Shown: in pieces, positions 4,278 through 44,662 of the stretch
How positions within the stretch are numbered: the first letter of the stretch is position 1
How the letters are laid out: every line of letters starts with the position of its first letter
From: Cavenderia fasciculata
Taxonomy: Eukaryota > Evosea > Eumycetozoa > Acytosteliales > Cavenderiaceae
Length of the DNA stretch: 64,000 bases
Assembly: GCF_000203815.1 (NCBI RefSeq)
Contig: NW_004457723.1
Span: forward strand, 248,001 to 312,000
Direction: 5' to 3'
Program-made: the position numbers and the translations under genes
Notes under the pieces: model-generated
What the model saw: only the letters and a program-made list of their open reading frames with translations
Databases searched by the model: none
Told to the model about the DNA's origin: nothing

Positions 4278-5350
4278 ATGTGTAGATTTATTTTTTATTT
4301 GGGATCACCAATTAAATTATCGGCCATTGTAACTGAACCAAGTCATGGTTTATTACATCAAAGTTTACATTCAATATGTCCAGGTGTTTCTTTAAATGCC
4401 GATGGTTTTGGTATTGCATGGTGGGTACCAGAGATTACTCCGATTCCATGTGTTTTCAAAGATATTACTCCTGCATGGTCAAATGTTAATCTTAGACAAT
4501 TATCAAGAGTGGTAAAGAGTGGCTGTTTGATGAGCCATATAAGGGCTGCATCTGCCGGAGCCATCACAACTACCAATTGTCATCCATTCACCTATAGAAA
4601 CCTCAGTTGGATGCATAATGGTACTCTATCTTATCATACTCAATTAAGAAGAGATGTTTTAAATCTTTTATCTCAATCTGTATGTAATACAAAATATAAT
4701 ATAAATAATATTTAATTAATTTATTAATTTATTTTTAATTTTAGGGATTTGAATTAATTAAAGGAACAACAGATACAGAATTATTATTTGCATTATTTAT
4801 TACCAATTATGAAAGAGAGATTGGATATGTACCAAAACCAAAAGAAATATCGACCACTGCCATTTATTCGACACATCATAGTTTTCTTGAACCAGAGGAA
4901 GAAGCCTATCCAAAGAGACACGACAATGCTCAAATATTTGCAAAGGTATTGAAAGAGACGATACATCAAGTTCACGCACTCATATTAAAGTATGAGATTG
5001 ACAATGGAATAGTGATGGACGAGGGTGATGCTGGTGCATCTGCGACACTACAGATAACAAAAACTTGCGCAAAACTTAATCTATGTGTGTCTGATGGTTC
5101 GTGTGTCGTTGCATCTCGTTATGTGACTGGTCCAACTACTTGCGCACATACATTGTTTTGGTCACGTGGTCAATCACTCGAATGTGACAAGGGTGCATGT
5201 CTCTTGTCGGGAAGCACCAACACTCTCAAACAATCGGTTATCATTAGTTCCGAACCTTTGGCTCTGGATTTCAAATGCAGTGAGGTCCCTGTCAACAATA
5301 TGGTCGTTGCAAATGATGATGGCTATTTTGAAATCCTTCCAATAAATTAA
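4278..5350 (+). CDS. Class II glutamine amidotransferase (DUG3/YafJ type)
   Basis: Predicted Ntn-type glutamine amidohydrolase of 335 residues. The start is fixed by the ATG at 4278 because the protein must begin MCRF: the Cys directly after Met is the nucleophile exposed by Met removal. Further family marks are NADGFGIAW (residues about 40-48), SHIRAAS and the HNGTL motif. Exon 1 is 4278-4679 and exon 2 is 4745-5350; the 65-base intron is phase 0 with GTATGT and TTTTAG ends, and the second exon (GFELIKGTTDTE) matches the family's substrate-pocket region. In yeast the relative DUG3 works in glutathione degradation; a similar role here is inference. The protein is complete. An upstream in-frame TTG at 4263 is not the start. 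Confidence 0.85.
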
Positions 5351-5426
5351 TATTAATTAATGTGATTTTAGTCAATCGCTGATACTAGAATAAAGTGAAT
5401 GATTGTTTTTCTCTTTATTACTTGTT

Positions 5427-5540
5427 TTAATAATATATATTAATTAAAAATCCATTGATCAATCCACCAACTAGAGCCAAAAGAAATATCATCCACCAGC
5501 TATTGTCTGACCTTTCCTTGTTCATCTCTTTTTTCCTTTG
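5427..5540 (-). other. Out-of-frame transmembrane tail next to the multi-kinase stop
   Basis: Just past the stop codon of the FNIP multi-kinase, and overlapping its last residues, another frame continues the coiled-coil composition and ends in a clear hydrophobic segment (WWMIFLLALVGG and following residues) with a TAA at about 5427. No GT-AG intron that I tried joins it in frame. It therefore looks like an ancestral C-terminal membrane anchor separated from the main frame by a single-base indel, either in the gene or in the assembly. The adjoining repeats contain A6 runs where such an indel could occur. Confidence 0.5.
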
Positions 5541-8500
5541 CGATACGATCTTGTTCATCTCTTTTTTCCTTTGCGATACGATCTTGTTCATCTCTTTTTT
5601 CCTTGTCAATGCGATCTTGTTCATCTCTCTTTTCTTTTGCAATACGATCTTGCTCGTCTCTCTTTTCCTTTGCAATACGATCTAGCTCGTCGTTTGTAGC
5701 CTTTTCCTTTGCAATATGATCTTGTTCATCTCTCTTAGCCCTGGCAACACGATCTTGCTGTTCTATATCGGCCATTTCTTTGGTGAATGGAATAAATCTA
5801 ATATTAAAGTATTGAGCATCCTGATACACTTGGTGAATATTATCTTCGTCCAATTCAATTAATTTGATCATATTTTTTAGTGGGTATTCAATACCTTTGG
5901 AGTTACTAAACTGATTGTTCAATGCTTCAAATTTAAGTTTATCTACTTGACAAAACAGATGTGGATAAATCGATTTTTGAACATGTGATACCACTCCAAT
6001 ATCCACCAAACCAATTGATATGAAAGTATCGTTGTTCTCCCATTGAAGAATATCCTTTTCCCTAAAAAGTAACAATGTTAATAATTGATCAAAAAAACAA
6101 TATTATTGTGGTACATACGTCTTGGTTTTACCAACTCCATAACATTTTTCACCAAGCATCAAGATGAAATCGCAGACCTTGTTGTCTTCGATGAATGAAT
6201 TGGTAATGTTGGTGTGTCCAGTGAGATGATAAATATTGATATCTTTTTCCAAATTTGACTTTATAGTATCCTTTGCTGTGGTTATGTGGATTGCACATCT
6301 AAAACCTAAAAATCCTTTGTGACCCTGCTTTAAATGGTTTAGTAACAGTGGCTGATTGAATGATTTACCAAGAACTAGTGTTTTAAGTGACTTTGGCAGC
6401 CCTTTCATTTCACTATTAAATGACGACCCTAGTATTAATGTTTCAACTCTACTAGGAATATCACCCCAATTGATCGGTTGATTGAACTTACCAAATAACT
6501 TTAATTTTAAAAGTGTTGGTGGAAGTAATCCAGTGAGGGGACTGTTGAATTCACCATCCAATATTAATGTTGTTGTGCTTGATAGGATTTGTCGTTGATC
6601 GATTAAAAACGATGTGATTCTTTGTGTGTGTTGGTTGACGTCTCCATTAAAATCATCCAATGAAAGACGATCACGAGGTGTTGCGATTAATAGTTTCGTG
6701 ACAAAATTAATTAAATGTTCAGAATATCTAATAGTTGATATTTTAATATGTTCTGCATTAAAGTTGTTTTCTTTGTGGTTCTTGATAAATTTTCTTCTAT
6801 TTTCAATATCATCTGGATGGCTAAAATAATAATAATATTATTCGAATATCATTATAAAAAAACTAAAAAGATCCAATTTAATCAAAAATAATTACCATGA
6901 AAGCAAATGTAAAAGAGTTGAACCAACCGAATATATATCACTTGAAGAGTAATATTTCTTTTGTCTTGATTCCTAAAATGAGATTTCAATTAGTTGGTAG
7001 AAGTTTTTAATTAAAAGATGTGTCTACATACCGGTGCATAATATCCATATGTTCCACGAGAGACAGGAAGATTCGAAGTGTCATTAATATTTATGGTTTT
7101 ATCAACTGGTTGATTTTGAAAATGGCAACAACCAAAATCACCAAGAACTATTTCGCCATCTGTTCCAATAAATAGATTTAGTGGTTTGATATCAAGATGT
7201 AAAAGATTGTGTTGGGATAGTTTTTCAAGTATGAGGAATAATCGTCGAATATATCGCCATATTTCTGATTCTGTAATATATTGATATTCGGTGCTTTGTT
7301 TTTGCTTTTGAGATTCATTCCTAAAAAAAAGACAATTGTCAGCGCGAGTAATGGATTGTAAACGAAAATGACATACCATTGATAGATTGATTGAAATATT
7401 TGTTCTAAATCACCACCCTCACAGAAATGTGTCAAAAGATATATCTTCTTTTCCTTGATATCATCTTGGTGATCTTTGTATTGTACAAACATATCGTCGT
7501 TGATAAATAGTTTCATCGTTGCGATTTCAAATTGTACTTTGTCATAGAGATTTGGATCTTTTTGTTTCTTTGAGTAATCTATTTCTTTGTAAACAAACTA
7601 AAATGAAATGAAATAAGATAATTTAGGTTGGTATTATGAATTAAACTATGATACATACCAATTCACCTTGTGATTCAGACATGACCAAAAACACTTGGTT
7701 GGCGGAGTATGGAAAAGAGTGAAGCTTATAATATTTGTGCTTGTTGACTGTAACATAGGAAGAGTGGTTGATAGGGTATGTCATTAAATAGTTGGAATGA
7801 AATATCGAGTTGGGAGTATGTACAGAAGTTGAGCTTGGTTCTACCTCGAATTGATCAATGTTGCCGCATTGGTCTTTAGAAAAAATGAGGATTTGATCTT
7901 TGAAACTAGGAAGCTTCAATACTCCGTATGACGTTGTCTTGATGAAACGCTTGTTAATTCCAATTGGTTGTTGGAAATCACATAAAAATCTTAGGACCGA
8001 TTTTGAACCTGGGCAATCAAACTTTAAAGTTTGTAATGATGTTGGTAATACTCCAATTGTTAGGGTGTGGTTATATCTTTTACCAAACACCAAAGATTGT
8101 AATGATGTAGGTAATACTCCATCTGATAGTGGTTGGGTAAATCTTTTACCAAACACCAATGATTGTAATGATGTTGGTAACACTCCAATCGAAAGTGCTT
8201 GATTATATTCATCACCAAACTCCAATGATTGTAATGATGGTGGTAATACTTTGGCTGATATTGATTGATCATACTCTCGACCAAACTTCAATGATTGTAA
8301 TGATGATGGTAATACTCCAACTGATATGGTTTGGTTGTAGTAATCACCAAACTTCAAAGATATTAATGCAGATTTTAATGATGGTAATACTCCAACTGGT
8401 AGAGGTTGATTATATCTATTACCAAACACCAATGATTGTAATGATGTTGGTAATACTCCAACCGGTAGACGTTGATCATATCTATCACCAAACTCCAATG

Positions 8501-11500
8501 ATTGTAACAATGGTAATACTCCAACCGGTAGAGGTTGATTATATCTATTGCCAAACCTCAATGATTGTAATGTTGGTAATACTTGATCTGACAGGCGTTG
8601 ATTATAGTCATCACCAAACACCAATGATAGTAATTTTGTTGGTAATACTCCAACTGATAGAGGTTGATTATATCTATCACCAAACACCAATGATTGTAAT
8701 GTTGATGGTAATACTCCAGCTGGTAGGCGTTGATTATATTCCCAACCAAACTTCAATGATGTTAATGATGGTGGTAATACTCCAACTGACAGAGGTTGAT
8801 TATATTTATCACCCAAAATCAATGATTTTAATGATGATGGTAATACTCCAATTGATAGAGGTTGATTAAATCCATCACCAAGCGCCAGTGATTGTAGTGA
8901 TGATGGTATCGATCTTTCTTGGTTGGGGAGATAGGTCGACATCGATTTATTCGATAGGATCTGTATATCAAAGTGAACATTGTATTCACTCTGTTGGAAT
9001 TTAGGCTCAACAACCATGTCTTTTCCATTTGTAGACTTTTTGTTCATTTCAATTGGCAAGCAAAAAGATTGACCAAATATCAAAGTTTCTACTCCTTTAG
9101 GAATATCACCCTCTTTGATCGGTTGATTGAACTTTCCTCCCAATTTTAGTTCGGTAAGTGTTGGTGGAAGTAATCCTCTGAGAGGAGTGTTGAATTCACC
9201 ATCCAATATTAATGTTGTTGTGCTTGATAGAATTTGTCGTCGGTCGATTAAAAATGATGAGATTCTTTGTGTGTGTTGGTTGACTATTTCTCCATTCAAA
9301 TCATCCAATGAGAGACGACCGTCAGGTGTTGTGGTTAATAGTTTCATGACAAAATTAATTAAATGTTCAGAGTATCTATCGGTTGATATATTAATATGAT
9401 AATCGAGTATGTATTGCTTGTGGTTGTTGATAAATTCTTTTCTATTGATAATATCATCTGGGTGACTGAGAAATAAAATTAGCACGTTGTAAGCAATAAT
9501 TATCCGTTCAATCAAATAAATTAAAATAATTACCATGAAAGTAAATGTAAAAGAGTTGATCCAACCGAATATATATCACTTGAGGGGTAATATTTCTTTT
9601 CTTTTGTTTCCTATAAATGAAATATATTAGATAATTGGTTGGTCAGTTATTAAAGGTGTATACATACTGGTGAGTAATATCCGTTTGTTCCACGAGAGGG
9701 AAGTGTTGAAGATATCATAGAGGAGGCAGTCTTATCATCGGTCTCTCGTTTTGTGGATTTGATAGATCCAAAATCACCAAGAACTATTTTGCCGTCTGAC
9801 CCAATAAATAGATTGAGTGGTTTAATATCAAGATGTGCAATTTTATGTTGATATAGTTTTTCAAGTATGAGGAATAATCTTCGAATATAGACCCATATTT
9901 CTGATTCTGTAATATATTTATATTTTGGAGGTTGTTGTTTTTGAGATTCATTCCTAAAAGAAAATGTTAGTGAACACTGTTGTTTACTGTGTGACCATAA
10001 ATACTATAAATAACATACCATTTAGTCATTGATTGACACAAATGTTCTAAATCACCACCTTCACAGAAATGCGTCAAAATATATATTTTTTTTAAATCAG
10101 AGTCATCTTGGTGGTCTTTGTATTGCACAAACATAGAGTCTTTGATGAATAGTTTAATCGTTGTGATTTCCAATTGGGTTTTGTCATAGATTGATTGATT
10201 GGAGGAGTAATCTATTTCTTTGTAAACAAACTAAAATACAAATAATGAATTAGTTATAGGATAGAGGTGTATGAATTAAACTTTGATACATACAAGTTCA
10301 CCTGATGATTCGCACATCACCAAAATAACTTTGTTGGTTGCGTGTGGAAAAGAGTGTAGCTTATAATATTTGTTAGAGTTGACTATGACATAATCTTCGA
10401 CTTTGATTGGATATCTTATTAAATGGTTCGGGATTGAATTGGAATTGTTGGCCAAAATAGAAGCGACATCGATATTGTGTTCTGACGGTGATGTAGAAAG
10501 AATGAGAGAAGATTTGGTACCCGGGAGTTTTATGGCCCCATGCGATTTTAATTTAATAAAGTTTCTGCTTACACCAATGGATTGGTTGTTTTTTTGTTCG
10601 ACAAATAATATTAAAGGAGTTGTTGGGTCCCCACCAAACACCAATGATTTTAATGATGTTGGTAATACTCCAACTGATAGAAGTTGATTATAGTTCCAAC
10701 CAAACTTCAATTCTTCTAATGATTTTGGTAATACTCCAACTGATAGTGGTTGATTATATCTCCAACCAAACTCCAATGATCGTAATGATGTTGGTAATAC
10801 TCCATCTGATAGAGGTTGATTATAGTCATTACCAAACACCAATGATTGTAATGTTGATGGTAATACTCCAACTGGCAGTGGTTGATTATATCTGTTACCA
10901 AACATCAATGTTTTAACACTATCAGGAATATCACCCTCTTTGATTGGTTGATTAAACTTTCCCAAAATCTTTAGTATTTTAAGTGTCTCTGGAAGTAATC
11001 CTTCATTGAGAGGAGTGTTGAAATCTCCATCCAATATCAACGTTGTCGTGCTTGATAGAATTTGATCGATTGAAAATGATGTGATTCTCTGTGTGTGTTG
11101 GTTGGATATTTGGGCAATAAAATAAGCCAATGTAAGACGATTTTCAGTTTCTTCGAATAGTTTCTTGACAAAATTAATTAAATTTGCAGAATATCTAACT
11201 GTTGATATTTTAATATGATCATTACTATCTCTGTGTTTGTCGATAAATTCGATTCTGTCTGCATGATCTTCTGGGTGGCTATTGAATCAAATATTTCATT
11301 GTCAATAAACCAAAATTAATTGAAATCAAATTAATAAATAAATTACTTACCATGAAAGTAAATGGAAAAGAGTTGATCCAACTGAATATATATCATTTGA
11401 AGGGTCATATTTCTTTTGTTGTTTTGATTCGAAATATATTAGAAATTGGGTTGTCGGTTCTTAAAAGATGTATACATACCGATGCGAATGATCCTTTTGT

Positions 11501-14500
11501 TCCAAGAGAGACAAGCCCCATAGATATCATATCTGAATGTGAAGTGTCAACGTAATCTTGATTATTTGTGGTTTTATCAATCGTTGGCACTGATCGGTTT
11601 GGTTGTGTTAATTTGCGACCACAACCAAACCCACCAAGAACTATTTGGCCGTCTTGCAGAATGAATAGATTGAGTGGTTTGATATCAAGGTGCACAAGAT
11701 TGTGTTGATATAGTTTTACAAGCATTTGGAATAATCGTCGAATATAGACCCATATTTCTGATTCTGTAATATATTTATATTCTGGGTAAGGTTTCCCCTT
11801 ATTCCTAAATAGATGTGTTAATAGTTAATTGGTAAATAATGAGCTGGTAATATCTTACCATTGATGCACTGATTGACATAATTGTTCTAAATCACCACCT
11901 TCACAGAAATGTGTCAAAAGATTTATCTTTTTTGAATCTCTGTTATCTTGATGGTCTTTGTATTGCACAAACATAGAGTCTTGGATGAATAGTTTCATCG
12001 TTGTGATTTCAAATTGTACTTTGTTGTAGATTGATTGATTGGAGGAGTAATCTATTTCTTTGTAAACAAACTAAAATACAAATAATGAATTAGTTATAGG
12101 ATAGAGGTGTATGAATTAAACTTTGATACATACAAGTTCACCTGATGATTCGCACATCACCAAAATAACTTTGTTGGTTGCGTGTGGAAAAGAGTGTAGC
12201 TTATAATATTTGTTAGAGTTGACTATGACATAATCCTCGACTTTGATGGGATATCGTATTAAATGGTTGGTATTATTGATAGAGTTGGGATTTGTGTCGA
12301 AAGTTGAACTTGATTCTGTCTCGAATTGATCATTGGGAACGTTTGATAAAATTAGGGTTCTGTCTTTGCAATTTGGAAGCTTCGATAATCCATATGAATG
12401 CGAATTAATGAAGCGTGTGCTGATTTCAATTGGTTGTTGGAAATCACAGAAAAATGTTAGAACTGACTTTCCTGGGCAGTCAAACTTTAAAGTTTGTAAA
12501 GTTGGTAATACTCCGATTGATATTGGTTGATCATATCTATTACCCAACGTCAATGATTTCAATGATAATGGTAATATTCCAACTGGTAAACGTTGATTAT
12601 AGTGAATACCAAACACCAATGATCGTAATGATGATGGTAATACTCCAACTGGTAGAGGTTGATTATATCTACTACCAAACACCAATGATTGTAATGATGT
12701 TGGTAATACTCCAACTGATAGAGGTTGATTATATCTATTACCAAACACCAATGATTGTAATGATGTTGGTAATACTCCAACTGATAGAGGTTGATTATAT
12801 CTATCACTAAACTTCAATGATAGTAATGATGATGGTAATACTTCAACTGGTAGTGCTTGATTATATCTATCACCAAACATCAACGATTGTAATGATGTTG
12901 GTAATACTTCAACTGATAGACGTTGATTATAGTCAACACCAAACACCAATGATTGTAATGATGTTGGTAATACTCCAACTGATAGAGGTTGATCATAGTC
13001 ATAACCAAACACCAATGATTGTAATGATGTTGGTAATACTCCAACCGATATTTCTTGATTATATCTATCACCAAACTTCAATGATTGTAATGATGATGGT
13101 AATACTCTAACTGGTAGAGGTTGATTATAGTCGTAACCAAACTCCAATGATTGTAATGATGATGGTAATACTCCAACTGATAGAGGTTGATTATATCTAT
13201 TACCAAACACCAATGATTGTAATGATGTTGGTAATATTCCAACTGATAGAGGTTGATCATAGTCATAACCAAACACCAATGATTGTAATGATGATGGTAA
13301 TACTCCAACTGATAGCGGTTGGTTATAGTCTTTATCAAACGACAATGTTTCAACTCCAAAGGGAATATCACCCTCATATATTGGTTGATTAAAGTTTCCT
13401 CCCAATTTTAATTCCAAAAGTGTTGGTGGAAGTAATCCTCTGAGAGGACTGTTGAATTCACCATCCAATATTAATGTTGTTGTGTTTGTTAGAATTTGTC
13501 GTTGGTTGATTAAAAATGATGTGATTCTCTGTGTGTGTTCGTTGATTATCTCTCCATTCAAATCATCCAATGAGAGACGATCATGAGGTGTTGCGATTAA
13601 TAGTTTCTTGACAAAATTAATTAAATGTTCGGAGTATCTATCAGTTGATATTTTAATATGGTCCATATCAAAGTTGTTATTTTTGTGGTTCATGATAAAT
13701 TGTTTTCTATTTTCAATATCGTCTGGGTGACTGAGAAATAAAATTAGGCATAGTCATTTGGACATAACGTTCAATCAAATTAAATTACTTACCATGAAAG
13801 TAAATGAAACAGAGTTGAACCAACCGAATATATATCACTTGATGCGTAATATTTCTTATGTTTTGATTCCTATAAATGAAATATATTAGATAATTGGTTG
13901 GTCAGTTATTAAAGGTGTATACATACCGGTGCATAATATCCTCTTGTTCCACGAGTTACAAGTGTTGTAGCTATCATATTTGCATATTGTGTTATTTCCC
14001 CATGATCTTCTTGATTATCGATCTTGTGATCATAGATGATTGAACGATTTTGATCAACGAAATAGTGACAACAACCAAACCCACCAAGAACTATTTGACC
14101 ATCATTTCGAATGAATAGATTGAGTGGTTTGATATCAAGATGTGCAAGATTGTGTCGAGATAGTTTTTCAAGTATGAGGAATAATCGTCGAATATAGACC
14201 CATATTTCTGATTCTGAGATATATTTATATTGTGGACTTGGCTTTCTTTTTTCAGCTTCATTGCTAAAAAATGTTTTTAGTGTTAATTGGTCATTAATGA
14301 GATGTAAATAAATAAATACCATACCATTTATAGATTGATTGAAATAATTGTTCTAAATCACCACCTTCACAGAAATGTGTCAAAAGATATATCTTTTTTG
14401 AATCTATGTCATCTTGGTGATCTTTGTATTGAACAAACATATCGTCGTTGGCGAATAGTTTCATCGTTGTGATTTCAAATTGGGCTTTGTCATAGATCGA

Positions 14501-15324
14501 TTGATTGGAGGAGTAATCTATTTCTTTGCAAGCAAACTAAAATACAAGAATAAAATAAGATATTTGTGTTTTCATAATCAAATACTGCATACCAATTCAC
14601 CTGATGATTCGCACATTACTAAAAATACTTTGTTGACAGAGTATGGAAAAGAGTGAAGCTTATAATATTTGTTAGAGTTGACTGTAACATAGGAAGAGTG
14701 GTCGATAGGGTATCTTATTAAATAGTTCTCATCGTAATTGATTGAGTTGGGATTTGGGTTGCGAGTTGAATTTGATTCTAAATTTAATTGCTCATTCGTG
14801 TTGCCATTCAATAGAACGAGTACTTGATCTTTGAAACTCGGAAGCTTCAATACTCCGTATGACAATGACTTTATGAAGTGTTTACTAATTCCTATTGGCT
14901 GTTGGAAATCACAGAAAAATCTTAAGGCTGATTTTGTACCTCCCAGGGTGCCAAACTCCAATGATTGCAATGATGTTGGTAATACTCCAAATGATAGACG
15001 TTGATTATATCCACTACCAAACTTCAATGATTGTAATGATGATGGTAATACTCCAACCGATATTGCTTGATTATAGTCTCTACCAAACACCAATGATTGT
15101 AATGATGTTGGTAATACTCCAACTGATAGAGGTTGATTATAGTCATCACCAAACACCAATGATTGTAATGATGTTGGTAATACTCCAACTGATAGTGGTT
15201 GATTATAGTCATCACCAAACTTGATGGTCTGTGTGTGTTGGTTGACTATCTCTCCATGCGAAACTTCCAAATCTTCACTGGATATTCCTAAAGTTAATTG
15301 TGAATCTATTTCTTCAGAGTTCAT
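5500..15324 (-). CDS. FNIP-repeat multi-kinase: four tandem FNIP-kinase modules in one predicted gene
   Basis: Eighteen exons on the minus strand join in frame into about 2,923 residues: 15324-14593, 14536-14325, 14263-13927, 13869-13793, 13730-12134, 12070-11859, 11804-11480, 11412-11351, 11278-10294, 10230-10019, 9953-9668, 9610-9534, 9465-7659, 7597-7377, 7320-7032, 6972-6896, 6820-6119, 6061-5500. Each module is an FNIP array of 22-residue units (YNQPLSVGVLP, SLQSLVFG), a kinase N-lobe (VYKEIDY for the ATP lysine, HFCEGGDL hinge), a catalytic loop HLDIKPLNLF, an activation segment, DIYSVG, and a HPDD linker leading into the next array. Kinase-like regions lie near residues 225-453, 965-1185, 1493-1705 and 2287-2503. 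DFG is intact in modules 3 and 4 but GFG in modules 1 and 2. The Gly-rich loop is not canonical. The tail is a small conserved domain plus an 11-residue coiled-coil repeat. The family resembles the D. discoideum fnk FNIP-kinases. Start chosen at the first in-frame ATG. Confidence 0.75.
5505..5745 (-). repeat. 33-bp tandem repeat encoding a charged coiled coil
   Basis: About six copies of a 33-base unit encode DEQDRIAKEKR repeats at the C-terminus of the multi-kinase. The unit length keeps frame, so copy number can change without truncation, but A5-A6 tracts inside each unit are natural slippage points. The heptad-compatible pattern of charged and aliphatic residues predicts a coiled coil. Confidence 0.75.
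7980..8925 (-). repeat. FNIP 66-bp repeat array, module 4
   Basis: About 14-15 consecutive units of roughly 66 bases (some 60-72) inside the exon 9465-7659. Each encodes one FNIP repeat with core LPxSLxSLxFGxxYNQPLSxGV. Several units differ in length where one or two codons are missing, which breaks the regular unit spacing but not the frame. Confidence 0.85.
10630..10915 (-). repeat. FNIP repeat array, module 3 (short)
   Basis: Four to five 66-base FNIP units in exon 11278-10294, clearly fewer than the arrays of modules 2 and 4. Neighbouring units are close to identical, a sign of recent unit turnover. Confidence 0.8.
12485..13345 (-). repeat. FNIP repeat array, module 2
   Basis: About 13 units of 66 bases in exon 13730-12134, many nearly identical at the DNA level (SLQSLVFG followed by two variable residues and YNQPLSVGVLP). 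The near-identity points to recent unequal exchange or gene conversion. Confidence 0.85.
14945..15215 (-). repeat. FNIP repeat array, module 1 (N-terminal)
   Basis: Four to five 66-base FNIP units following a short N-terminal leader in the first exon of the multi-kinase. Confidence 0.8.
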
Positions 15325-15580
15325 TCTGATATGACTCTTTCTTGGCTTGATCCTTTGAAACAAATGAGAATGTTAGCTTCACTTTACCGAACATAGAGAG
15401 CAAAGAAAAAATCAACCCATCAAAAAAAAAAAAAAATTGGTTCGCGTGGCAAATAGATATTTTAAATTTGATCAAACAATTTTAAAAAACAATTGATTAT
15501 GGCAAGCTATTATTACAATAATAATTATAATTATAACTAGTCAGTTAAAAGAGTAATAATAGTAAAACAGGTAGTTACAA
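15325..15580. promoter_or_regulatory. Divergent promoter region between multi-kinase and unknown small-protein gene
   Basis: A 256-base AT-rich gap between start codons on opposite strands. It contains a long A tract at about 15422-15435 (T-run upstream of the minus-strand start), typical of dictyostelid core promoters. Individual elements are not resolvable by eye. Confidence 0.5.
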
Positions 15581-16087
15581 ATGGAGCCTGAAGTATCAAT
15601 TAACCCAAATGATAGTCAAATAAAAGACCACATCACCGTTGTCAACTATATGAGTAGAGCAATAGTGGTGTTTATGAAATCAGGCTCACAACCCGTACAA
15701 ATCGATAATACGAAATACCTCACTACCATCTTCCCAGGTGGCACTAAACAAAGTATCGCAAAGCGTATTGCTGATGGTCAACCGATTTCTACAAACCTCC
15801 TCGTCACAGGTGAAATCGGATACCTCTTTATATTTGTAGCGGTCAATGAAGAGGGTAAAGTACCGAGATATATGCAATTGGTCGACAGAAGAGTAGTAGT
15901 TGGATCAAGATTCAATGTTCTAACAAAACATTATTATGCAGCCATACAGACCGATACTCGTCAGTTTGATGAACACTTTCAACTGATCAGAAATGATGTT
16001 CAACCAGCACCACTCTTTTATGAATTGTCTTACCCAAGCCCCACCGATCAAGAAGAACAACAAGAAGACTATGAAGATATAAAATAA
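15581..16087 (+). CDS. Small uncharacterised protein, tandem copy 1
   Basis: Intronless, 168 residues, starting at ATG 15581 and ending TAA. I do not recognise the family. There is no signal peptide or membrane span. The core looks like a beta-rich domain (ITVVNYMSRAIVVFMKSG and GYLFIFVAVNE are hydrophobic strand-like stretches), with SRFNVLTKHY and AAIQT segments and an acidic tail rich in Glu/Asp/Gln. It shares these blocks with the next gene, so the pair is a tandem duplication. It is divergent from the FNIP multi-kinase, but nothing shows a functional link. Confidence 0.75.
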   Translation: MEPEVSINPNDSQIKDHITVVNYMSRAIVVFMKSGSQPVQIDNTKYLTTIFPGGTKQSIAKRIADGQPISTNLLVTGEIGYLFIFVAVNEEGKVPRYMQLVDRRVVVGSRFNVLTKHYYAAIQTDTRQFDEHFQLIRNDVQPAPLFYELSYPSPTDQEEQQEDYEDIK

Positions 16088-16253
16088 ATTCAATTGTAGT
16101 TATTTTTTTGTTGACAAAAATAGATTCAAAAAAAAAATATCTCTATTTTTGTTTGACACATCCACATCCTCAGAGAGTTATCATCATAGATAATAAATAG
16201 TATTATTAACCCTTAATTAATTGTTGTTTAAACACAAAGAGTAGTATATAATT

Positions 16254-29298: not shown

Positions 29299-32216
29299 AT
29301 GGATGAAAGTACTTCACATACCAAAACTTTACAATCATTGGAGTTTGGTGATGAATATAATCAACCTCTATCAGTTGGAGTATTACCATCGCCATTACAA
29401 TCATTGGTGTTTGGTGATAAATATAATCAACCAATAGCAGTTGGAGTATTACCATCATCATTACAATCATTGGTGTTTGGTAATAGATATGATCAACCAC
29501 TATCAGTTGGAGTATTACCATCATCATTACAATCATTGGAGTTTGGTTGGCACTATAATCAACCTCTATCAGTTGGAGTATTACCACCATCATTACAATC
29601 ATTGGTGTTTGGTTGGAGCTATAATCAACCTCTATCAGTTGGAGTATTACCAACATCATTACAATCATTGGTGTTTGGTATTAGATATGATCAACCACTA
29701 TCAGTTGGAGTATTACCACCATCATTACAATCATTGGTGTTTGGTTGGAGCTATAATCAACGTCTATCAGTTGGAGTATTACCATCATCATTACAATCAT
29801 TGGTGTTTGGTGATAGATATAATCAACCAATATCAGTTGGAGTATTACCATCGTCATTGCAATCACTAAAGTTTGATTTTACGTACCCTGAATTATTATT
29901 ATTATTTTTAGTTGATTTCAAGCAACCAATTGGAGTAAGCAGAAACTTTATTACGTCCAAATCACATGGAGTAATCAAACTTCCAAATACCATAAAATAT
30001 CACCTCACTCTTTCAACAACCTTATCTCCAAAAGAACAAGGTATCGATATTATTTCTGTTTTAACAAACAGTGAACAACCAATTACACTCGACTCCAATC
30101 CCAACTCAATCCATTACGACCGCAATTATTCAATGGCATATCCTATCGACCACTCTTCCTATGTTACAGTCAACAGCCACAAATACTATAAGCTACACCC
30201 TTTTCCATATTCTGTCAACAAAGTAATTTTAGTAATCTCTGAATCATCAGGTGAAATGGTATGTAAATTGGTTGATCATTGTAAACGATTACATCAATCA
30301 GATCACCACCAACTACTAATTTATCTTTTAGTTTGTTTACAAAGAAATAGATTACTCCTCCAATCAATCGATCTATGACAAAACACTATTTGAAATCACA
30401 ACAATGAAATTATTCATCAACGACTCTATGTTTGTGCAATACAAAGATCACCAAGACGACAGTGATTTAAAAAAGATATATATTTTGGCACATTTCTGTG
30501 AAGGTGGTGATTTGGAACAATTATTTCAATCAATGACTAAATGGTATGTTATTACCAGATTTCCCAACGAGGTTTTATTAATGACCAAATTAACACTAAC
30601 AACACTCTATTTAGGAATGAATCCCAAAAACAACAACCTCATCCAGAATATAAAAATATCCCCGAAACAGAAATATGGCGACACATTCGGCGATTATTCC
30701 TCATACTTGAAAAACTATCTCAACACAATATTGCACATCTTGATATTAAACCACTCAATCTATTTATTCGTTATGACGGTGAAATAGCTCTTGGTGATTT
30801 TGGTTGCTGTCACACTTACGTTGATCAAAATAATTTGTTAGATGATAACGTAAATATTGGTGAAGACACAAATAATAATCAAGAAACAACAGAATATGCA
30901 AATATGATAGCCACAACTCTCGTAACTCGCGGAACAAAGGGATATTATGCACCGGTATGTTTGCAACGCCCTTTAATTAAGCTCTGCGACTGATGACTAA
31001 CATTTACATTTATAGGAATCAAAACAAAAGAAATATTACGCTACAAGTGATATTTATTCTGTTGGTTCAACTCTTTTACATTTACTCTCATGGTAATTAT
31101 TATTATTGATCAAGTATTGCATAATCATATCCTTGATAACTAATTTATTTATAGTCATCCAGATGATATTGGAAATAGAATTGAATTTGTCAAGAACCAC
31201 AAAAATAACAACTTTGATGCAGATCATATTAAAATATCAACAGATAGATATTCTGAACATTTAATTAATTTTGTCAAGAATCTATTAATCTCAACACCCT
31301 ATGATCGTCTTTCATTGGATGATCTAAATGGAGAAATAGTCAACCAACACACACAAAGAATCACATCATTTTTAATCGATCAACGACAAATTCTACCAAA
31401 CACAACAACATTAATATTGGATGGTGAATTCAACAGTCCTCTCAGAGGATTACTTCCACCAACACTTTTAAAATTAAAGTTATTGGGAAACTTTAATCAA
31501 CCAATCGAATGGAATGATATTCCCAATGGACTTGAAACATTAATATTTGGACCATCATTTAATAGTGAAATTAATTCCCTTCCATGGTCATTAAATAATT
31601 TAGCTTTAGGAAAATCATTCGATCAACCATCGGCTCTAAAATTTGATACAAATACCACAATACACATAACCACTTTTAAGAAAAAAGAAATTTTGTTCAA
31701 ATGGACAGATAGATTGAAACGTATAAATACCTACTACTGCCAAGATTCAGAGCAGGTAACCATCAATTCATTTATTAAAAACAAGATTGTTGAATCGAAT
31801 CTGATCATGACCATCGGTGAACAATGCTATGGTATTGGTAAAATCGAGAGGTATGTAAATCTGGCAAGTCTAATAATAAAACAATGATACTGACCAATAT
31901 TTTGAATAGGATCAATAATATACTAGAGTGGAAGAAGAATGATGAAATCAAATTCATTATCAATCTAGAAGATGTCAAAGTGATATCACATGTTCAAGCA
32001 TCAATCTATCCACATTTATTCTGTCAAATAGATAAATCAAAATTTGAATCAATCAATCAACACTTTGTCGAATACCAACCCGACTCTGAATACCCCCTAA
32101 AGGAAATGGAGCAACTATTTGAATTGGATGAAGACAACATTCATCAAGTGTTTGAAAATAATGATCAATATCTAAATATTAGATTGATTATCAACCTACC
32201 TAAAGAGCAACAATAA
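29299..32216 (+). CDS. Single-module FNIP-repeat protein kinase
   Basis: 863 residues from six exons: 29299-30258, 30332-30543, 30615-30954, 31016-31092, 31155-31850, 31910-32216. Intron positions and the 212- and 77-base exons match those of the four-module gene on the other strand. The order is a short leader (MDESTSHTK), about nine FNIP units, a kinase with VYKEIDY, HFCEGGDL, HLDIKPLNLF, GDFG, YYAPES and DIYSVGS, then a HPDD linker, three FNIP-like units and a conserved C-terminal domain (SIYPHLFCQ, LDEDNIHQV). The catalytic Lys, Asp, Asn and DFG Asp are all present, but the Gly-rich loop lacks its glycines and HRD is HLD. It lacks the coiled coil and anchor seen in the larger relative. 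Of the three loci it looks the most intact. Confidence 0.85.
29325..29870 (+). repeat. FNIP repeat array of the single-module kinase
   Basis: About eight to nine 66-base units, very similar to each other (TCATTACAATCATTGGTGTT cores). They are inverted relative to the arrays at 8-15 kb and direct relative to those at 42.9 kb. Confidence 0.85.
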
Positions 32217-37176: not shown

Positions 37177-40100
37177 TTAAGAGGTAATAACCATATTATC
37201 CAATTCTCTTGAAATTTCTTCTTTGTAATCCATAAAGTCACCATCATATTTGGTGACGGTACCATCCTTTTTAACGACCCAAATTTCATTGGCAACCATA
37301 TTGATAAGATGTTGATTGTGAGAGATGAGGACGACACCACCTTGGAAGGCGTTGATACCTATCGCAAGGGCCTCGATGGCATCGATATCCAAATGATTGG
37401 TAGGTTCGTCGAGTAGGAGGACATGTGGTTGAGCCCAAGCAAGTTCTGCTAAAATGACACGAGACTTTTGACCACCGGAAAGGGTAGTGATCTTGTGGAG
37501 TGGCAAGTTGCCGCAGATACCAAAACGACCAAGATGGTTACGAATCTCTTGTACTGGGGGATTGCTAAATTTGGTTTGGAAGTATTCGATCGGGGTTTGG
37601 TCAGTGTTGAGTTGATCGACAAAATGTTGAGAGAAACGAGCGATACGCATCTTTCTCGAACGTTCAATGTAACCTTCGGTTTCGAGGAGATCGCCCATCA
37701 TGAGCTTCATCAAAGTACTCTTGCCTACACCGTTCATTCCGACCAGGGCAATCTTGCTGTCCATGTCAACACCAGTCTCTAGATTTCTAAACATGGTTGG
37801 ACGTCCTGGATAACCAAACGATACATTGTCAAAACGTAAAAGAGGAGGGGTGAGCTTTTCAGGATCGGGGAACGAGACAACCAACGACTTGTCTTCCTTT
37901 TCAGCAACGACCACTTCAATCTTGTCAAGCTTTTTCTGACGTGACGATGCACTCTTGGCCTGAGTATTGTTTTTGTTCTTTTGAATAAACTCTTTTTCCT
38001 TTTTAATCTTTCTCTCCATCTTGTCAATGGCCTTGTCCTTGGTTCTGACCATCACCTCTCTTTGCTTGAGGAAAGCGTCATAATTGCCACGGTATTGGTC
38101 AAGACGTTGGTCGTGAATGTGAATGATATTGTCGACAACTTCATTTAAAAAGGTGGCTTCGTGAGATACGACCAACAAGGTACGATCCCAAGCATAGAGA
38201 TACTTTTCCAACCACACACAAGCATGAAGATCCAAATGATTCGATGGTTCATCCAACAATAATACTTCAGGCTTACAAAACAATGCTCTCGCCAATGCAA
38301 TTCTCATTCTCCATCCTCCTGAGTAATCTTTACTTGGTTTAGTTGCAATTTCTTCAGTTGTAAATCCTAAACCTACTAAAATGGTTGATGCTCTAAAATA
38401 AAATAAATTAATTAATAAATTATTATTATTATTATTATTTTCTATTTTCTTTCTTTTCTTTTTTTCTTACCTATGAGCAGCTTTATCAGATTCAATTTCA
38501 CGTAATCTATCATAAATATCACGAAGATTATAATTTCTTTTTTCTCTTGGTTCATATGGCCAATTTGGATTGGTTCTATCCAATTCGGTGAGAATCTTTT
38601 CTTCTTCGAGCAACCATGCACGTTCAGAGTCTGCCTTTAGTACACATTGGAGTGGAGTGTTTTCATCACCAACGACTTCCTGTTCGACATAGAGTACTCT
38701 GAGATGTGGGGCAATGGTGATTTCATCACGAGAGGCAATCTTTTTGACAAGACATGATTTACCAATACCATTTCTACCAACAAAACCATACTTTTTACCA
38801 TAGGCCAAGGTGAGTGAAGCGTCTTGGAGAAGGATCTTGCCTGGTACGGAAAGAGTCAACTTGTCAAACTTGATATCATTACCAATGTTGCTACGAAGAC
38901 CGGCAGAGGTTCTTAAATGTACATAGGCGGGTGGTTCACGACCTGGTACATCGTCAATGTCTACATTGTCATAATCAATCTCTTGAGTTGGTACATTACC
39001 AATGATTGGATCTTCATCTTGTTGTCTCTTTTTAATTGCCTTTTCTTTCTTTTTCTCCAATTTGGCTTTCTTTTTGGCTAATTTGGCTGCTTTTGCTTCT
39101 GCAATTGTTAATACTTTTGGTTCATCTTCAAGTTCCTCTTCTTCTTCAAGTTCTTCCTCTTCTTCTTCTTCTTCTTGAATTTCCAATTTTGACAACTTTG
39201 ATGATAATTTATCCTTTTTAGATGATTTTTTGGTTGGTTTGACTTCCTCCTCTTCTTCTTCAAGTTCTTCTTCTACGACTTGTTTCTTTCCACCCTTTTT
39301 GTTGTCTTTCTTTCCACCCTTTTTGACTGGTTGTGGAATCTCCTCTTCCTCTTCTTCTTCTTCTTCTACAACTTGTTTCTTTCCACCTTTCTTGTTGTCT
39401 TTCTTTCCACCTTTTTTAACTGGTTGTGGGATTTCTTCTTCTTCCTCTTCTTCTTCTTCTTCTTCAGATTCGACTACAACTTGTTTCTTTCCACCTTTCT
39501 TGTTATCTTTCTTTCCACCTTTCTTGACTGGTTGTGGAATATCCTCTTCCTCTTCTTCCTCTTGTTCATCTTCAGATTCTTGTTTCTTTGGTGTTGGTTT
39601 CTTGTTGTCCTTCTTTCCACCCTTCTTGACTGGTTGTGGGATTTCTTCTTCCTCTTCTTCTTCAGATTCTACAACGACGGCAGCTGGTTTCTTTTGAGCA
39701 GCTTGTTTGTTACCACCCTTTTTAGCTGGTTGTGGAATACCATCATCTTCATCTTCTGATTCATGTTGTTGTTGTTTCTTTCCACCCTTTTTGTTGTCTT
39801 TCTTTCCACCCTTTTTAGCTGGTTGAGGAATACCGTCGTCTTCTTCTTCAGACTCTACTACAACTGGTTTCTTTTGAGCAGCTGCTTGTTTGTTACCACC
39901 CTTTTTAGCTGGTTGTGGAATACCATCGTCTTCATCTTCAGACTCGTCTTGTTGTTGTTGTTGTTTCTTTCCACCTTTCTTGTTGTCTTTCTTTCCACCC
40001 TTTTTAGCTGGTTGAGGAATACCGTCGTCTTGTTCGTCTTCACTCTCTTGCTTCTTTGGTGGTGTTGTCTTTTGAGCAGCTGCTTGTTTGTTGCCACCCT

Positions 40101-42825: not shown

Positions 42826-44662
42826 ATGAATGAACAACAAAAGTTACAACTCCTCCAAGAATCAATTCCCACTATAGAGCCATTACAATCATTGACATTT
42901 AGTTATAACTACAATCAACCTCTATCTCCTGGAGTATTACCAACATCATTACAATCATTGGTGTTTGGTGATAGATATAATCAACCTCTATCAGTTGGAG
43001 TATTACCATCATCATTACAATCATTGGTGTTTGGTTATTACTATGATCAACCTCTATCTATTGGAGTATTACCATCATCATTACAATCATTGGTGTTTGG
43101 TGGTTACGAAAATCAACTATCAGTTGGTGTATTACCATCATCATTACAATCATTGGTGTTTGGTTATCACTATAATCAACCTCTATCTATTTGTGTATTA
43201 CCATCATCATTACAATCATTGGAGTTTGGTGATGAATATAATCAACGTTTGGTAATGTCACAAATAATAATCAAGAAAATAATGAAACTGTTAATCAAAC
43301 AACACAACCTTCAGACAAGGTATCCATGGCACCTGCCTCTCGTGGAACAAAGGGATATTACTCACCGGTATGTTGATGTCTTTTTATTAATAGTTAACTA
43401 CCAACTTTAATTTAGATTTTTTTTATAGGAATCAATACAAAAGATATACTACCCGTCAAGTGATATATATTCAGTTGGTTCAACTCTTTTCCATTTACTT
43501 TCATGGTAATTATTTAGCCGATCTTATCATTCAATGAGAGTTGATTTTATTATTGATTTTTTTATTTTTAGTCACCCAGATGATATTGGAAATAGAAAAG
43601 AATTTGTTAAGAACCACAAAGAAAACAACTTTGGTGCTGGCCATATTAAAATATCAACTATTAGATACTCTGAACACTTAATTAATTTTGTCAAGAAACT
43701 ATTAATCGAAAAACATCAAGATCGACTTTCATTGGGTCATTTAAATGGAAAAAAAATCAGACAACACACACAGAGATTCACATCATTTTTTATCGATCAA
43801 CGACAAATTCTATCAAGCACAACAACATTAATATTGGATGGTGAATTCAACCGTCCTCTCAAAGGATTACTTCCACCAACACTTTTAAAGTTATCTTTAT
43901 TTGGAAAGTTTAATCAACCAATCAAACAGCTTGATATTCCCAAAAGCGTTGAAATACTAATATTTGGATCATCATTTAATAGCTAAATAGAAAATTTTTC
44001 ATTGCCAGAGTCACTCGAAATACTAGTTCTTGGTAAATCATTCAATCAACCATTACATTCATACGTCGCACTCGACCCTATGATTTTATATCGATCCACA
44101 ATCCACTTGATCAGAGATAATTTTAGTGATTCAATGATTTCAAATTTATATCATTTTTATGAAAGGAATCTCAATATATATTACTGCTCTGTACACGACA
44201 ATAATATAATTGCCTATTCATTCCTCAAGGAGAACATGAAAATTGACTCTTTTATCCTGACCGTTGGTCAAGAATGTTTTGGAATTGGTCAAATCAAAGG
44301 GTATGCTTTTTTTTACACCTTCTTATCATTGCTACGATTTGATCATTAATATTATTATACTATTTAGAGATAACAATATGATACAATGGAAGAACAATGA
44401 TATTTCAATATCAATAGATTTAATGGATTTTGGTGTGATATCACATGTTAAACAATCAATTCATCCACATTTATTTTGTCAAGTAGATAAAAGTAAATTT
44501 GAAGCATTGAATAAGCAGTTTGGTGACTCTCATGGTATTGAATACTCACTTATATATGTGGCCAAATTATTTGAATTGGATGAAGATAATATTCATCAAG
44601 TGTATCAAGATGGTCAATATCTGAATATTAGATTAATTCCATGGAAGTTCCGAAACAAATAA
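42826..44662 (+). pseudogene. Decayed FNIP-kinase with most of the kinase domain lost
   Basis: Starts like its relatives (ATG 42826, leader, six FNIP units) but at about 43238 the array joins directly to the activation segment, which is in another frame (FGNVTNNN through SRGTKGYYSP). The N-lobe, hinge and catalytic loop are missing. Downstream, the usual pieces are present with the conserved introns: the 77-base exon (ESIQKIYYPSSDIYSVG), the HPDD linker, FNIP units and the C-terminal domain (SIHPHLFCQ, LDEDNIHQV) ending at 44662. A stop interrupts the FNIP part at 43984. So at least one frame change and one premature stop separate it from a working gene. The first 420 bases could still encode a small FNIP-only protein. 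Confidence 0.75.
42890..43245 (+). repeat. FNIP repeat array in the decayed FNIP-kinase
   Basis: Six units, five of 66 bases and one shorter (missing YNQP residues), closely matching those at 29.3 kb. Confidence 0.8.

Follow-up and report, generated by a model that had tools for sequence, protein, structure and literature searches.

A 64,000-nucleotide stretch of the Cavenderia fasciculata genome (contig NW_004457723.1, positions 248,001 to 312,000; here called the window) carries on its minus strand what is very probably one gene, encoding one 2,923-residue protein with four FNIP-kinase modules in tandem. The structure is real and unusual, being a variant of the FNIP-kinases with four kinase domains, two of which are probably inactive; its working we infer. 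The explanation that we consider moderately probable for the whole is a single four-module FNIP-kinase protein of exchange origin, with pseudokinase control.

When the minus strand was re-spliced at conserved sites, 18 exons gave a single open frame of 2,923 codons, from an ATG at 15324 to a stop codon ending at 5500. All 17 introns were GT-AG, 54 to 75 nt long and compatible in phase. Exon lengths recurred from module to module, at 212, 212, 212 and 221 nt for the N-lobe exons and 77, 62, 77 and 77 nt for the 77-nt-type C-lobe exon. A preliminary description of this DNA had reported the same exon, intron and codon counts, phases and exon lengths, and all were reproduced by this re-derivation. 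It had also placed the linker of one kinase and the FNIP array of the next in one exon. This is the case for join exons 5, 9 and 13 (1597, 985 and 1807 nt), each of which contains a kinase end, a linker and the following FNIP array, and then a ~100-residue bridge leading into the next kinase. No join contained a stop and the frame was continuous, while base-shuffled join exons were stop-free in 0/1000 cases each. The parts of the gene are as follows.

5500..15324, minus strand: the entire predicted gene, with 18 exons that together give 2,923 codons when spliced at conserved sites
14951..15221, minus strand: FNIP array 1, preceded by a leader that ends in GEIVNQHTQ and resembles the post-kinase linker
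13557..14718, minus strand: kinase module 1 (limits approximate), in exons 1-5, with K, HLD, GFG (DFG aspartate lost) and APE
12503..13347, minus strand: FNIP array 2, in exon 5, which also holds the last part of kinase 1 and the first part of kinase 2
11112..12268, minus strand: kinase module 2 (limits approximate), in exons 5-9, with K, HLD and GFG but having lost the APE segment and the aligned acceptor
10633..10954, minus strand: FNIP array 3, exon 9
9297..10434, minus strand: kinase module 3 (limits approximate), in exons 9-13, with K, HLD, DFG and SPE
8909..9070, minus strand: insert of ~55 residues in the third join (limits approximate), in frame and not made of repeats, containing AATAAA at 8951
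8031..8908, minus strand: FNIP array 4, exon 13
6648..7799, minus strand: kinase module 4 (limits approximate), in exons 13-17, with K, HLD, DFG and APE
5770..6400, minus strand: C-terminal tail, exons 17-18 (approximate limits), which single-module relatives carry after their kinase
5517..5757, minus strand: 33-bp repeats encoding an R/D/E/K-rich C terminus, probably a coiled coil
11413..11479, minus strand: intron 7, with a weak AAAG acceptor; alternative in-frame intron at 11382-11475

One gene among single-module relatives

To place the gene in its family, the 31.0-Mb genome was searched (21 contigs; the window is 248001-312000 of contig C7). Searches with the N-lobe and the tail scored 28/28 and 41/41 candidates, respectively. 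There were 27 N-lobes, four in this gene and 23 elsewhere, and all 23 of the latter were solitary, with no other N-lobe within 9 kb. Three of the 23 are weak matches (C5:299026, C8:570710 and C18:1337345; E 3e-4 to 5e-7), and perhaps not every one of them is a FNIP-kinase. The tail was present at 21 of the 23 outside loci, 20 by a match within 4 kb downstream and L054 by spliced alignment; C18:477982 and C5:299026 were tail-less, and some tail matches contained stops. Spliced alignment also modeled 21 relatives, 20 at loci elsewhere and one at window position 29299, where the preliminary description had correctly recognized a single-module gene. The tail followed the single kinase in 20 of these models, with L057 stopping short, and a 77-nt kinase exon was found in 16. 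The aligned part was free of frameshifts and stops in 14/21; the other seven (L041, L043, L045, L051, L052, L054 and L057) had one or the other, and some of these may be aligner artefacts.

Like this gene, the single-module FNIP-kinases (for example, that at window 29299 to ~32200) have a FNIP array, a bridge, a kinase with like introns, a linker and a short FNIP stretch. They differ in that one kinase is followed by a tail, whereas here four kinases share one tail, which stands after module 4 only. Neither stops nor AT-rich gaps mark the joins: the 14 lowest-GC windows listed either lay outside the gene (15401-15600, 5301-5450 and 16051-16250) or overlapped introns. One gene is favored because of the open frame, the splicing, the single tail, the joins without stop or AT-rich gap and the 23 solitary N-lobe loci. 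The continuous gene of the preliminary description is well supported by these data.

Two sets of observations weigh against the single-gene reading. On the gene strand between 15600 and 5201, AATAAA occurs twice, at 5419, which is 81 nt beyond the stop, and at 8951, within the coding insert of the third join in exon 13, where the frame continues through it. Our confidence in a single gene is lowered slightly because of the latter site. The second set concerns intron 7, in module 2, whose AAAG acceptor has pyrimidines at 4/13 positions, the lowest among the 17 introns; in the remaining 16 the acceptor is TAG or CAG. The acceptor that aligns with those of the other modules is lost, and the 62-nt exon depends on AAAG. 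A scan of GT-AG pairs (donor within 60 nt, intron of 35 to 199 nt) found three frame-preserving splices, namely, the modeled one, one with an earlier donor at 11512, and 11475-11382 with a TTCAG end, all of which leave out the APE region. The last has the better acceptor and removes more of kinase 2, including the segment matching SSDIYSVG. If intron 7 were retained, the protein would stop after residue 1188.

An alternative is a cluster of genes that overlap or lie close together, with internal promoters or alternative ends that yield shorter proteins and a long frame that is incidental. In its favor are the AATAAA in the third join, the truncation of the product in module 2 if intron 7 is retained, and the single-module structure of the relatives. 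Against it, modules 1 to 3 lack the C-terminal tail that 21/23 other loci have, the joins have neither a stop nor an AT-rich gap, and the join exons read a kinase end and the next array in one frame. We regard this alternative as improbable. Four separate genes were rejected as the leading reading by the tail-less modules 1 to 3 and by the joins without stops or AT-rich gaps; the AATAAA in the third join stays. Wrong joining of repeats in the assembly is very unlikely. The 66-bp repeat arrays and an exact 209-bp repeat between modules could have favored such an error, but module exons 2 to 4 differ by ~8 to 27% outside gaps and so are not copies of one stretch, and a collapse at the 209-bp repeat would by reasoning delete a module rather than create one. 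As to a possible broken fifth module farther upstream, three-frame translation of 15325-15600 contained no kinase remnant by eye.

The C terminus of the single-gene product has features of its own. The 33-bp repeats were not seen in the 19 of 21 relatives whose C-terminal end was displayed. Compared with Pfam at E values up to 1, the tail gave weak matches only, the best (E 0.0042) being below its cut-off. At the stop, an alternative frame (window 5519-5430, minus strand) is open through the last 33-bp repeats and encodes a transmembrane-like stretch, SWWMIFLLALVGGLINGFLINIYY, which matched only its own site in a genome-wide search. This frame could be due to chance, to a base error or to a lost tail anchor.

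At window 42826-44662 (plus strand), a broken relative consists of a FNIP array, a partial C-lobe, an in-frame TAA and the conserved tail, and the N-lobe search of the genome gave no N-lobe match there. At C7:316388-317206 (in L046), a post-kinase FNIP stretch and tail with no N-lobe match of their own stand upstream of a full FNIP-kinase and are likely a relic. The first 0.7 Mb of contig C7 holds 11 of the 23 outside N-lobes, scattered on both strands. The window as a whole is about two-thirds A+T, with no tRNA found within it, large overlapping tandem repeats of 90 to 189 bp at 39226-40031 and an AT skew of -0.35 in 38001-40000.

Kinase domains and FNIP arrays

All four modules matched Pfam Pkinase (PF00069), with E values of 2.8e-25, 2.6e-18, 7.2e-26 and 4.7e-27 and scores of 89.7, 66.8, 91.6 and 95.5 bits for modules 1 to 4 (cut-off, 31.7). 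A VAIK-type lysine and HLDIKPLN are present in 4/4 modules; most kinases have HRD where these have HLD. With module 4 as the query, the nearest solved kinases by sequence were NEK2 and NEK1, followed by the cdc2-inhibitory kinase. At the DFG position, modules 3 and 4 have DFG and modules 1 and 2 have GFG. The aspartate was retained in 19 of the 20 relatives in which the segment is present, the sole exception being L058, with codon GGT. The codon is GAT in modules 3 and 4 and in the four relatives checked, and it is GGG in both module 1 and module 2. Because the codon is the same, the loss in modules 1 and 2 is probably a common one, either inherited or passed on by exchange.

Activity was judged by the equivalents of K72, D166 and D184 (PMC1420674). 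Modules 3 and 4 have all three, and D184 is absent from modules 1 and 2. These residues make it likely that modules 1 and 2 are pseudokinases and that modules 3 and 4 are active kinases. Counting against activity, by inspection none of the four modules has a GxGxxG glycine-rich loop (G52) ahead of its VAIK-type lysine, and the Pfam matches start at profile position 14. Modules 3 and 4 are rated active only with qualification because this loop is missing. The preliminary description, although well supported as to one gene, had missed the GFG motifs, the losses in module 2, the insert at the third join and the exchange between modules.

A single-module locus, L058 (C21:2379500-2387500), is without the DFG aspartate (GGFG) and the catalytic-loop lysine (HLDIN) and is probably a stand-alone pseudokinase. 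A search for viral relatives of the kinases found one IMG/VR stretch that fitted the pattern and none that tblastn confirmed with one kinase query, a search that reaches close relatives only.

The arrays consist of 66-bp DNA repeats encoding the 22-residue FNIP unit (PF05725; LxxLxFGxxFN), which scored 208.9 bits against a cut-off of 21 in the first of four protein pieces; 33 regular units were found by pattern in the protein. Among these 33 units, replacement change was highest at positions 5, 8 and 9 (replacement/silent, 0.49/0.18, 0.58/0.38 and 0.60/0.28), and changes at the core leucines, asparagine and proline were mainly silent. This pattern, which is not a selection test, fits variable binding surfaces. 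It is less specific than that idea would have it, as replacement exceeded silent change at 12/22 positions, beyond the presumed contact positions (the remaining ones are 2, 6, 12, 15, 16, 17, 18, 21 and 22). The viral FNIP/FGxxFN proteins Crov588 and Crov539 have a like 22-residue repeat, LxxLxFGxxFNQ, with positions 8 and 9 the most variable, as here; they differ in being viral repeat proteins, and the passages available of their description mention no kinase domain (PMC9525666). In Dictyostelium discoideum, FNIP genes have been tied to the regulation of autophagy (PMC4554924) and to social behavior (PMC3559258), in passages that do not show a role for FNIP-kinases. The FNIP/B-box family is given as 55 members in Dictyostelium (now Cavenderia) fasciculatum versus 206 to 381 in three others, in the part of that report available (PMC4334915).

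Exchange between modules and origin of the array

Like introns of the modules were compared in 24 pairs. In 22 of these, identity was 41 to 68%, and two were identical, intron 1 of modules 2 and 3 (63/63) and intron 3 of modules 1 and 3 (57/57). Each lies in a longer exact tract.

12027..12235, minus strand: 209-bp tract matching 10187-10395 exactly and running across intron 1 in modules 2 and 3
10187..10395, minus strand: second copy of the 209-bp identical tract
13867..13926, minus strand: 60-bp tract identical to 9608-9667, at intron 3 of modules 1 and 3

Exact tracts across introns are best read as recent exchange between modules. In addition, GEIVNQHTQ of the module 1 leader recurs in the linker after kinase 3, and the FNIP repeat register is preserved at the joins between modules 1 and 2 and modules 2 and 3. 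The shared motif and the kept register suggest recombination in linkers and FNIP repeats.

Other comparisons complicate the origin of the array. A kinase tree (24 rows, L057 excluded) did not unite the four modules, pairing only M2 and M3 (90/96); with 12 of its 21 inner branches open and the bootstrap not settled, it neither shows nor rules out one origin of the modules. In a segment comparison with 17 relatives (L054 to L057 excluded), the N-lobe exons of all four modules and the catalytic exons of modules 1, 3 and 4 were nearest to single-module relatives, not to sister modules. The bridges of the modules were nearest to each other, with ~100 of 330 nt inside the exact tract in the case of modules 2 and 3. 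Origin purely by duplication within the gene was unsupported, as the modules have no settled place in the tree and several of their exons are nearer to other genes. Genes that had already diverged may have come together in the array, or conversion may be widespread in the family. In the origin that we propose, the short post-kinase FNIP stretch of one copy would recombine with the N-terminal array of another, and such unequal exchange would chain units of a many-membered family of single-module FNIP-kinases; later conversion would partly homogenize the modules.

The ratio of nonsynonymous to synonymous rates (dN/dS) was 0.45 to 0.60 for the kinases of the six module pairs and 0.29 to 0.49 for the modules versus the eight relatives used. 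Module 2 evolved faster, a point against the favored explanation, with a ratio of the corresponding proportions (pN/pS) of ~0.85 versus 0.44 for module 3 (hand arithmetic, W29 as outgroup), a rate as for a domain losing constraint. When neutral decay of the module 2 kinase was simulated without indels, the frame stayed open in 3/2000 runs at 12.5% divergence and in 39/2000 at 6%.

These data bear on the possibility that the gene is a decaying fusion, a pseudogene in the making, in which unequal exchange linked the modules by chance and their functions are now being lost in turn. The loss of the DFG aspartate in modules 1 and 2, the loss of the acceptor and APE in the fast-evolving module 2, broken family members such as that at window 42826-44662, and the seven relatives with a frameshift or stop, real or artefactual, are what such decay would produce. 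It is rather unlikely nonetheless, given 2,923 codons without a stop, dN/dS below 1 in all module pairs, and the closing of the module 2 frame under neutral decay in 1997/2000 and 1961/2000 runs at the two divergences.

Proposed working and related proteins

In the working that we propose for the four-module protein, the FNIP solenoids would serve as protein-binding surfaces whose variable residues differ between repeats. The two N-terminal domains, without the metal-binding DFG aspartate, would act as noncatalytic binding or regulatory domains and regulate the two C-terminal domains, which have the catalytic residues. The protein would then be a scaffolded kinase with built-in pseudokinase control. 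Such regulation between the domains is put forward tentatively; the preliminary description had likewise suggested that the units could regulate each other. It is also possible, at a similarly low level of confidence, that the length of the chain varies neutrally and that the modules act independently as ordinary FNIP-kinase or binding units, with no cross-regulation. Each module indeed has the unit structure of a single-module gene; against this, two of the four domains are predicted to be inactive, while 19/20 relatives with the segment retain the aspartate.

Active and inactive kinase domains in one chain are known from D. discoideum. In the available part of a kinome survey, dual-domain kinases, and kinase-pseudokinase proteins of the JAK/GCN2 type, combine the two, with the inactive domain N-terminal in most of those described, and they differ from the present protein in having two kinase domains versus four (PMC1420674). 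The term "fnip" had no match in the text of that survey. The tandem kinase-pseudokinases of plants, such as WTK1/Yr15, are alike in pairing a kinase with a pseudokinase, which here is by sequence only. In the passages available, KinI of WTK1 belongs to the non-RD kinases, a class in which the HLD motif would also place these modules; the plant proteins differ in having two domains, with nothing else conserved as a domain among the 92 described, and in belonging mostly to receptor-kinase families, whereas NEK2 and NEK1 are nearest here for module 4 (PMC6170490).

The preliminary description had called a protein of this kind undescribed. This agrees with the open-licence PMC literature, where titles and abstract openings yielded no protein that combines FNIP repeats with three or more kinase domains, and extends that far only, two-kinase proteins being already known in D. 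discoideum from the survey. Under FNIP-kinase gene names, the 12 papers listed out of 127 appeared to be unrelated.

A more specific working, which we think unlikely, is a tandem sensor in which every FNIP solenoid has a protein ligand of its own to read and two pseudokinases gate two kinases in the same chain. If true, it would be an independently evolved social-amoeba counterpart of the plant tandem kinase-pseudokinase receptors, built and reshuffled by recombination within the FNIP-kinase family. Two kinase domains is the number given for the multikinase proteins described in the available part of the D. discoideum kinome survey (PMC1420674), and this four-kinase chain exceeds it. With its FNIP arrays and exchange tracts, the chain would offer a natural case of repeat recombination giving rise to kinase-pseudokinase proteins, and a system in which regulation between domains can be tested.

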